This document shows, piece by piece, positions 20,093 to 36,512 of a DNA stretch of 40,802 nt. Within the stretch, counting starts at the first letter, position 1, and every line of letters starts with the position of its first letter. The notes below the pieces were generated by a model. It worked only from the letters and a program-made list of their open reading frames with translations. It made no database searches and was not told where the DNA came from. Origin of the DNA: Candidatus Methanophagales archaeon (GTDB lineage Archaea; Halobacteriota; Syntropharchaeia; Alkanophagales; Methanospirareceae); NCBI GenBank assembly GCA_030612835.1, contig JAUWND010000003.1, positions 1 to 40,802 on the forward strand, read 5' to 3'. Position numbers and translations under genes: made by a program.

Positions 20093-20328
20093 TTTATATG
20101 TTGGAACTGGATGTATATAATATCTTTGAATTATTCGTCTGGCTATACCTTATAAACACGAGATGATACTGACTTCTAGGCGAAAATGTGGATTAATACG
20201 GCTCGCTCTGTCTCTTGAATAATTTGGAGTTCTGCAGTTTCGACCAACTCTTCTTAAAGTTGCGCGATCTGGTTGCGGATACAACGAAACGAGCAATCGT
20301 TATTATAACTTCTAACTATAAATTTAAT

Positions 20329-20403
20329 TTAGGACGCAGATTTACACGGATTTACACTGATTTGATTTTTTCTGCGTTAATCTGCGTTAATCTGTGTCAA
20401 TAA
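20329..20403 (+). repeat. Dispersed inverted repeat, copy B
   Basis: ttaggacgcagatttacacggatttacactgattt...ctgcgttaatctgcgttaatctgtgtcaataa. Confidence 0.85.
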
Positions 20404-21377: not shown

Positions 21378-21668
21378 ATGGATAGTGAAGAAAAGTACAA
21401 ATATATCTTTGAAGATACAAGTTTTGAAAATCGAACTCGTGTTGATTGGATTACTGATTGCTTATTAGGTGATATACGAACTTACTTGAAAGGCATTAAG
21501 AAGATCATTTGTGAAAGCAGTGATGGAACTTCTGAAAAACCACTTGGTGGCGGTAATTTATCCGTTCCTATTCTAATTAGCTCTGCTCTTGAATTTGTAT
21601 CTGAATTGTATGCAGGTAATACCAGTTATATATTATATTTTAGGCTCTTCGCTATTTCATGTGGGTAG
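21378..21668 (+). CDS. Hypothetical protein, possibly C-terminally frameshifted
   Basis: ORF ends 'AGNTSYILYFRLFAISCG*'; another frame continues 'WVDVVKWLLKNPKSGEKSGSYPK*' just downstream. Confidence 0.45.
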   Translation: MDSEEKYKYIFEDTSFENRTRVDWITDCLLGDIRTYLKGIKKIICESSDGTSEKPLGGGNLSVPILISSALEFVSELYAGNTSYILYFRLFAISCG

Positions 21669-21818: not shown

Positions 21819-23510
21819 ATGAGAAAACAAGGATCAAAACCAACGAAATCACGATTTGAAATCTCGAAAATATCATCAACAGCAAAAGATAACAAAAAAT
21901 CTTCCCGCAGCGAATCCACAGAGACCACACAAAAAGAACACAACGAACGATGCCCTGATTGCAAGGATACAATTGAACGAATGCTCAAACAGATTTATGG
22001 CGATGTAAAACCGAATTACAAATTTAGAACTGGCACAAATCCAGAAGATTTCAGCGATAACCCATTTTATGACGATCTCCAGAGAATATATGAAAATCTC
22101 CAGAATTATAGGGGAAACAAAAACTTTGTGATTACGGATACACTACCCAACTGCGATTATTATGTTCCGGATCTAGGATTTGTTCTGGAATTTGATGAGT
22201 CTCAACATTTTACAATGCCACGAAAAATAGCACTGCTGAGCTATCCCTATAAATCACGATCTGGCTTTTCATTGGCACAATGGATTTCTACGTGCGATAA
22301 AATCAAAGCTCATGATCCGGATCCAATATACCGTGATGAGCAGCGTGCATGGTATGACACGCTAAGAGATTTTCTGCCTGAGTTCAAAGGTCTGGAACCC
22401 ACCGTAAGGCTTTATTCAAACGAGATGCAGTGGTGTAGCTTAAATCCTGATAATCGTGATGACATTGCACACTTCAAGGCCATTATTGAAGCCAGAAGAA
22501 GAGCGATAACTAACTGGATCGCCACAGTAGTCATCAAAAGCGGCTTTTGTAGCCTGGATGCTAAGTTTAAAGCGGACCTGAATATTAATCCAATCTCCGC
22601 TAATTTAAAAGCGGAATTAGATGCTAAGAAATTCACACTTACCGCAGCTGCAACAGTCACAGAGGAGCGAACGGATAAATGGACGATACACGATGGAAAT
22701 ACGATCTATAGCGCCTATAACGAAGATGAACGGCTGACTGTTTACAAATGCCATAACGAAGACCGGCTGAACGTTCTATCTAACGTTGTACAATCCATTG
22801 TGAAACGATCTACAGGCGATGGCGTCATTCTATTCCCCGCAGGCATGTTCTATACCGAAGAAAAACCGGCAAGCACATACTATAACAGAGTACAGGAAAC
22901 GCTCATACCCGTTCTCAAACAGACAACCAGCCATATCATTGTCTGCACAGGCGTAGATAGTGCCCGGGATCAGATCGCCTTAGCAATAGACAAAACCGGC
23001 ATCATCGCTAAAGGTCGTAAATTCTACACCGCGCCAGGTGAAGATCAAATAGAACTCGCACCGAATTATTCAACAGAAGAAGACGGTAAATCGCGTAGAT
23101 TCGAGCTGAACGACACCCGCTATTACATGTGCGTCTGCTACGACATCTTTGGGCTCCGGCATAAAGACCTGCACAATCCCGGAGTAGATGTCGTCCTGAA
23201 CCTGGTGCACTGTTTCTATCAGCCTGGAAAAGGCCCGTGTGGTTTAGCACTTTTTGCTAAACACGGCCTTGCAGGCGCATCGAAACAATGGAAATGCCCC
23301 GTATTTGCTGCAGTAATCTTTTTCAAACCGAACATCCCCACGCAGTGGCCTACTGGCGTATACTGGAACCAGGGCGATAAGAGCACCCGATTCTGGCGAT
23401 ATTCGGATAACCCGATCAAACCTGCGAATAACTTTGAAACAGAAATCGAAGAAGGTGTGGCTCTGGTTAGAATGTATAAACATCCGGGATTGGTGGCTCC
23501 GGCACAATAA
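21819..23510 (+). CDS. Predicted nuclease (DUF559/Vsr-like) fused to nitrilase-superfamily-like domain
   Basis: 'CDYYVPDLGFVLEFDESQHFTMPRKIAL' nuclease-like; 'GIIAKGRKFYTAPGE' and 'YYMCVCYDIFGLRHKDLHNPGVDVVLNLVHCF' nitrilase-like Lys and Cys motifs. Confidence 0.65.
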   Translation: MRKQGSKPTKSRFEISKISSTAKDNKKSSRSESTETTQKEHNERCPDCKDTIERMLKQIYGDVKPNYKFRTGTNPEDFSDNPFYDDLQRIYENLQNYRGNKNFVITDTLPNCDYYVPDLGFVLEFDESQHFTMPRKIALLSYPYKSRSGFSLAQWISTCDKIKAHDPDPIYRDEQRAWYDTLRDFLPEFKGLEPTVRLYSNEMQWCSLNPDNRDDIAHFKAIIEARRRAITNWIATVVIKSGFCSLDAKFKADLNINPISANLKAELDAKKFTLTAAATVTEERTDKWTIHDGNTIYSAYNEDERLTVYKCHNEDRLNVLSNVVQSIVKRSTGDGVILFPAGMFYTEEKPASTYYNRVQETLIPVLKQTTSHIIVCTGVDSARDQIALAIDKTGIIAKGRKFYTAPGEDQIELAPNYSTEEDGKSRRFELNDTRYYMCVCYDIFGLRHKDLHNPGVDVVLNLVHCFYQPGKGPCGLALFAKHGLAGASKQWKCPVFAAVIFFKPNIPTQWPTGVYWNQGDKSTRFWRYSDNPIKPANNFETEIEEGVALVRMYKHPGLVAPAQ

Positions 23511-23512
23511 AT

Positions 23513-23566
23513 TGTTGACACCGATTAACGCAGAAGAAATTAAATCCGTGTAAATCTGCGTCTTAG
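23513..23566 (-). repeat. Dispersed inverted repeat, copy C (reverse orientation, shorter)
   Basis: Reverse complement reads ctaagacgcagatttacacggatttaatttcttctgcgttaatcggtgtcaa. Confidence 0.85.
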
Positions 23567-23765
23567 TTGGTAGTTATACGTTATATATAATGAGAAATTG
23601 CAAAATAAGGAAACCGCGATCGCTGCTCTGGAACTTATAGAACAGCATTTGGGTATGACATCGCCAATATATCTCTTTAAAACTAGAGATTTGTCAAAAT
23701 CAGAAAATCACAAGATAGTAGATGCCATGTTCATGCCTACAACCCCCGCTTCTGAATCGCCCTCT

Positions 23766-36281: not shown

Positions 36282-36512
36282 TTTTAGATGCCTTCCTTGT
36301 ATCTGCACAAAAATTGGTGGATCTTTTTTTGAACCGACAATGTAAAATGAAAAATAACATTATAGAACCTTAACTTCGAATCGTTTTGGGGAACATAAGC
36401 AATCCCAGTGCTTCATCCAAGTCCATCACTTTCTTTGGAACCTCAGTGATCATGCCACGCCCTCGTATTTCAAGATGGTAGACCTTGCGGTATTTGTTTA
36501 GCCCCTTTTTAT

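Follow-up and report, generated by a model that had tools for sequence, protein, structure and literature searches.

Gene and Surroundings

The window, meaning the whole 40,802-nucleotide stretch of Candidatus Methanophagales DNA analysed here, carries a forward-strand gene for a protein of 563 aa. The gene and the features next to it are as follows:

21378..21668, + strand: small upstream ORF, 96 aa, with no Pfam match and no relative in the genus
21819..23510, + strand: whole gene, 563 aa, ATG to TAA (ORF listing and translation)
21819..21932, + strand: residues 1–38, low-confidence tail (pLDDT about 40), at the position of a ScoMcrA-type head in most fused relatives
23515..23578, no strand assigned: intergenic repeat 3′ of the gene, with an inverted copy at 20317–20390 (repeat search I1–I3, 82–83% complementary)

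The ORF is intact and free of stops, and its translation contains all the motifs quoted in the initial annotation. The protein can be aligned over its full length to the relatives L002–L006, L009, and L011. The unusual fusion proposed earlier, of a nuclease and a nitrilase-like domain, is confirmed by the intact ORF, the nitrilase fold found by modelling and Foldseek, and the invariant nuclease residues. The two-domain fusion is genuine and recurs among the relatives. The protein had no match above the cut-offs of Pfam, NCBIfam, or PADLOC (0 PADLOC families), and phmmer found no match to it among the PDB sequences.

The neighbours of the fusion gene in the window are an alpha/beta hydrolase gene and a HATPase/SpoIIE pair. 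No defence genes were found near it in the window by the ORF listing and Pfam analysis of the neighbours. The small ORF that had been called broken does exist upstream and is probably unrelated to the fusion gene. What had been taken for a mobile-type palindrome is the intergenic repeat behind the gene. The two inverted copies of this CACGGATTTACAC-type repeat bracket a 3.2-kb segment with the alpha/beta hydrolase gene and the nuclease–nitrilase gene. The description of a solitary accessory gene agrees with the patchy distribution and the disrupted closest orthologues reported below.

Nuclease Domain

The first domain has the following features:

21951..22502, + strand: predicted Vsr/DUF559-like nuclease domain, residues 45–228 (alignment n = 65; model pLDDT 93; BFVD matches)
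22155..22208, + strand: putative active site, D113 and E124-F-D126-E-S-Q-H130
22332..22346, + strand: R172-D-E-Q-R176 motif in a core helix (D173 in 64/65)

The residues D113, E124, D126, E127, Q129, H130, R135, P169, R172, R176, D180, D184, and R197 are identical in 65/65 family members, far more than chance would give for the nuclease motif. The cysteines C45, C48, C159, and C206 are kept in 62–63 of the 65 aligned domains, a pattern that suggests a probable zinc site. The conserved motifs are of three kinds (D-E-x-D-E-x-Q-H, R-D-E-x-R, and the four Cys), and the domain of ~190 aa has its own invariant signature, EFDESQHF and RDEQRAWYDTLRDF.

The AlphaFold2 model of the domain was confident. 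The predicted topology is helix-strand-strand-helix-strand, with the D...ExD/QH...R motifs in the core. Foldseek of this model against the PDB gave no significant match; the best was AbaSI (E 1.6), with 1vsr at E 4.1 and the influenza PA endonuclease also among the weak matches. The nuclease profile likewise had no significant match in the PDB (AbaSI, E 0.41). A kinship with copper ATPases in the profile search was rejected as spurious because the similarity was confined to the CxxC helix. Homing endonucleases and restriction enzymes prevailed among the top matches to the viral models of BFVD; many reached a match probability of 0.98–1.0, at sub-significant E values of at least 0.014 (range noted, 0.014–0.05). 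A profile comparison with DUF559 proteins of archaeal genomes was of little use, as those sequences have diverged too far.

The best Pfam lead was DUF7255 (PF23913), which covers residues 91–161 of the window protein at 17.4 bits, below the 27-bit gathering cut-off. The DUF7255 model matches the nuclease domain in 50/64 relatives (best 1.1e-6), and L085 passes the gathering score with 39.1 bits. DUF7255 is a Pfam family without a described function and is not named in the literature searched.

The domain shares with Vsr, the EDxHD homing endonucleases, and DUF559 the D...ExD..QH pattern, a later R and D, the zinc-suggestive Cys pattern, and the topology. It is set apart from them by its signature and its length. 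Since no PDB fold match was significant, the Vsr/DUF559-like assignment leans on motif, topology, and the sub-significant viral matches. The nuclease-domain call in the initial annotation holds at that level.

Family Spread and Exchangeable Partners

One scan of species genomes gave 79 loci with relatives (L numbers denote loci throughout). The nuclease domain (about residues 40–226) is ~40–76% identical in nearly all of them. The hosts include ANME archaea, methanogens, Bathyarchaeota, DPANN, Chloroflexota, Acidobacteriota, Nitrospirota, Proteobacteria, and others; named strains with a locus include Desulfacinum hydrothermale DSM 13146, Methanobrevibacter cuticularis DSM 11139 (with Dnd genes), and Cupriavidus sp. 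BIS7. No homologue was found in the phage, plasmid, and viral-contig collections. Five partner classes accompany the same nuclease, either fused to it or encoded by the gene immediately downstream:

Class A: archaeal type, the window protein's own class (n = 11), FPAG/FPGG
Class B: canonical E-K-C nitrilase with a ~180-aa tail
Class C: motifs TCGGF / GKSYP / GCHD, Glu absent in every member; includes L023 of Desulfacinum hydrothermale
Class D: no nitrilase motif seen
Class E: motifs LFS / CGETN-like

The partner is a separate downstream gene in L015, L017, L033, L034, L047, L053, L059, L060, L062, L063, and L070. In L017, the architecture of the window protein is divided over two adjacent genes. 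Stand-alone nuclease forms of ~200 aa also exist. By hhalign, the comparison of class C with class A was suggestive (p 5e-4), that of class C or class E with class B was unsupported, and class E had no support throughout. A nitrilase fold is thus tentative for classes C and E, where it is suggested by motif order.

A maximum-likelihood tree was built from 55 nuclease domains carrying the five partner labels. It needs at least 14 partner changes, whereas 4 would suffice for five labels. Well-supported sisters carry different partners (L008 with A and L028 with D, 99/96; L010 with A and L025 with D, 100/99), and L065 of class B groups with L055/L061 of class C (98/89). These changes and the strongly supported mixed sisters show partner exchange. 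The nuclease is the constant part, and the partner is an exchangeable module, most often of the nitrilase type.

Nitrilase-like Domain

The second domain of the window protein belongs to class A and has the following features:

22512..23480, + strand: nitrilase-like domain, residues 232–554, split by an insert (Foldseek PDB; hhalign to class B)
22830..22844, + strand: L338-F-P-A-G342, with Ala341 at the catalytic-Glu position (LFPGG or L(F/L)PAG in 11/11 class A)
23016..23024, + strand: R400-K401-F402, Lys motif, invariant in 11/11 class A
23136..23144, + strand: C440-Y-D442, nucleophile Cys motif, invariant in 11/11 class A

The full-length model of the window protein reached a pLDDT of 77. 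Foldseek against the PDB matched it to Nit2 (7ELF, E 7.5e-8) and recovered the alpha-beta-beta-alpha nitrilase fold. There were 52 matches at E ≤ 0.001, and the 50 listed all belong to the nitrilase superfamily. The window protein has no match to Pfam CN_hydrolase; other family members do match. The class-A profile (n = 11) aligned with the canonical class B by hhalign (p 5e-5), with FPGG and CYD falling on FPE and CHD. Searches of the PDB with the class-A and class-C profiles returned nothing credible, and the class-B partners match solved nitrilases there.

The catalytic Glu is replaced by Ala or Gly in 11/11 class-A members, and K401 and C440 are invariant. The Glu-Lys-Cys triad of the window protein is accordingly incomplete, with Lys401 and Cys440 present and Ala341 in place of Glu. 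In 16/16 aligned class-B members, FPE is kept and the triad is full. Nit2 and the cyanide dihydratase of the nitrilase superfamily have the fold and the Lys and Cys positions in common with the window protein, and differ from class A at the Glu. Because Glu is absent throughout the class, we regard the identity of the window protein as an active carbon-nitrogen hydrolase as doubtful from its sequence. The earlier placement in the nitrilase superfamily is upheld for the fold, Lys, and Cys, and is in doubt for the activity. The 'Glu region' had been placed correctly at FPAG, where class A has no Glu.

In-Frame Insert and Related Repeats

The nitrilase half contains an insert that the initial annotation had missed:

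22545..22751, + strand: inserted element, residues ~243–311, ~70 aa, absent from L002, L004, L006, L011, and L083

The same element, ~67 aa long, also lies within several unrelated ANME-1 proteins; as judged by eye, these include a glycosyltransferase and one protein in which a region resembles a nuclease. Its profile was found in 36/36 ANME-1-family genomes searched, with 1–8 copies each, and almost nowhere else. The copies are nearly always in frame within long ORFs and almost never contain stops (loci besides the window: L089, L090, L091, L094, L095, and L115–L144). The insert in the window is a decayed copy of this ORF-invading ANME-1 repeat. Its dS to L001 is 0.90, against 0.09–0.20 in the flanking domains; a value so far above the flanks points to replacement or conversion. 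At L007:735, the homology starts at window position 22740, the right end of the insert, and the nuclease half is missing from that contig.

A second element of ~88 aa is inserted at another site of the nitrilase domain in L003 and L009 and also occurs in L085 (L003:1880-2140; L085:2563-2826; further loci, L145–L174). Of the 36 ANME-1-family genomes, 20 contain it. In at least five genomes, the ~88-aa element abuts the ~67-aa one or interrupts it, at a constant point, as nesting would produce. The DNA ends of both elements form an inverted repeat, GTATTTGTTTAGC ... GCTAAACATATAC. We read both elements as frame-preserving, ORF-invading repeats, akin in logic to the Rickettsia palindromic elements.

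The 74 TATWTGTTTAGC sites in the genome of the window were considered as further ORF elements and rejected, as most belong to another repeat, which is intergenic and has ends of a similar kind. This repeat of ~190 bp starts with TATTTGTTTAGC, ends in many copies with GCTATACAAATAC, and occurs at window position 36491 and at about 70 further sites in the same genome. The genome has 74 starts of this repeat, compared with 2 for a control pattern; its ends are similar to the ORF-element ends.

Head Domain and Neighbourhoods of Relatives

Most fused members start with a head domain of 80–100 aa, GVP..R.S...YPPKY..SLA...F.GG.E...FL..LGF. The head-domain profile (28 relatives) matches the N-terminus of ScoMcrA (PDB 5ZMM, E 2.5e-6), a type IV restriction enzyme dependent on phosphorothioate or modified cytosine. 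The head is probably a domain that contacts DNA or its modification. A class-B homologue that carries it is L049. It is absent from the translated window protein, which also lacks SRA, SBD, and HNH Pfam matches and has a different type of nuclease from ScoMcrA. A review of phosphorothioate systems (PMC10853773) makes no mention of Vsr, DUF559, ScoMcrA, or nitrilases.

At L047 in Methanobrevibacter cuticularis, the genes downstream of the nuclease and its class-D partner are DndF, an intervening gene, and DndH, in that order. A DndG match was obtained among the scanned neighbours overall, with no locus assigned. Restriction neighbours are a type IIG enzyme at L062 and a type IV enzyme at L035. 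L029 lies near a Dsr1-like protein (SIR2-type), and L054 adjoins an N6A-type methyltransferase. CARF winged-helix regulators stand beside the nuclease gene at L028:920-1747, L010:6523-7743, L057:959-1900, and L070:6833-7435, the one at L028 being of the HFX_2341_N/DUF6293_C type; they are a possible link to cyclic-oligonucleotide signalling. This is a raw list of neighbours, uncorrected for background, and generic models (UvrD, WYL, AAA) account for several of the PADLOC matches. The proximity of some relatives to defence genes is suggestive of defence.

The stand-alone nucleases of Deltaproteobacteria MAGs are L045, L048, L064, L073, and L076. Four of them adjoin a conserved molybdopterin-oxidoreductase-like gene and L045 adjoins a CoxG-like gene, which is an unexpected metabolic context.

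Distribution and Possible Decay in ANME-1

The nuclease occurs in 8/51 ANME-1-family genomes and in 5/14 genera, a patchy distribution. The closest orthologue, L001, is 83% identical to the window protein. L001/L081 have one in-frame TAG, and L007/L082 have four stops. The TAG at L001:843-845 stands where the window protein has Gln385 (CAG), and is either a nonsense mutation or a recoding. Measured against L001, the window gene has an omega of 0.22 in the nuclease and 0.35 in the nitrilase part, which indicates purifying selection, and the gene was therefore constrained until recently. The window copy, with an insert and no head domain, may be weakened or impaired.

Proposed Function and Alternatives

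We propose that the window gene is one form of a modular nuclease system against mobile elements, in which the partner gates the nuclease, and give this reading about an even chance. A defence role of the family is likely, as judged from its genes and their contexts. The constant part would be a DNA nuclease of the Vsr/DUF559-like type that depends on metal and carries a zinc site, and its target would be foreign or modified DNA. The nitrilase-like domain of the window protein would bind a small molecule or a partner, or react with it covalently, without turning over a substrate, and the domain so engaged would switch the nuclease on. A role in sensing or gating is proposed because Lys and Cys are kept and the general-base Glu is lost. 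The nuclease is favoured as the effector because its residues are constant, the partners vary, and Glu is absent in two partner classes. The defence effector suggested in the initial annotation thus finds backing in the family, through the ScoMcrA head, the Dnd, restriction, and CARF-HTH neighbours, the patchiness, and the partner swapping, but not in the window's own neighbourhood.

The reverse logic is provided by DRT1 (UG1), an RT-nitrilase, in which a nitrilase is likewise fused to a nucleic-acid enzyme (PMC13275509). There, the mutation C1116A of the nitrilase Cys abolishes immunity, and the system works by abortive infection (PMC13275509). By analogy, the nuclease, with its head, would sense DNA or activate the protein, and the nitrilase would be a toxic effector acting on an essential amide- or amine-bearing metabolite, with abortive infection as the outcome. 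Class B suits this reading best, as it keeps Glu-Lys-Cys in every aligned member and matches active nitrilases. Class A, to which the window protein belongs, and class C lack Glu in every member, however, and class-D partners show no nitrilase motif; hydrolysis is therefore not the general output. Conservation is also stricter in the nuclease residues than in the partner residues, and the window protein differs from DRT1 in having no reverse transcriptase match as well as an incomplete triad. We consider a nitrilase effector rather unlikely. It is also unlikely that the family works as proposed while the window copy is in decay and now functionless. The lost head, the element in the nitrilase domain, the stops in the two closest orthologues, and the end of the L007 homology at the insert's right end point that way, but the 563-aa frame is full and stop-free, omega is 0.22–0.35, and all catalytic-type nuclease residues are intact.

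Two further readings place the nuclease outside defence. The resemblance to Vsr and EDxHD-type enzymes, together with a solitary window gene that has no defence neighbours, would suit a Vsr-like DNA-repair nuclease with a regulatory domain; such a role is improbable in view of the patchy presence in ANME-1, the broken nearest relatives, the partner swapping, the ScoMcrA head, and the Dnd linkage. A selfish, homing-type nuclease that moves between genomes with associated genes is quite improbable. Phage homing endonucleases make up several of the top BFVD matches, and the stand-alone forms and the wide horizontal spread would agree with such a life, but the pairing with dedicated partners and the head domain is stable, and neither relatives in the searched phages, plasmids, and viral contigs nor evidence of homing sites was found.

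To return to the gated nuclease, the pairing of a nuclease with a nitrilase-type partner is not described in the literature searched, nor is a nitrilase fold as a switch that senses a metabolite or modification. As far as that literature goes, the family is undescribed; the fusion is real and modular. We speculate, tentatively, that it could be a new class of prokaryotic immunity, in which a constant Vsr-like nuclease serves under interchangeable partners, several of them Glu-less nitrilase folds acting as metabolite- or modification-sensing switches. In 2026, a study of DRT1 described nitrilases as uncommon in antiphage defence and the substrate as unknown (PMC13275509). The present family offers another use of the fold, here beside a nuclease, that is widespread and unrelated to the first. 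Its natural variants with or without the catalytic Glu make the question of enzyme or sensor directly testable. In addition, the window protein illustrates how short repeats invade ANME-1 proteins in frame.
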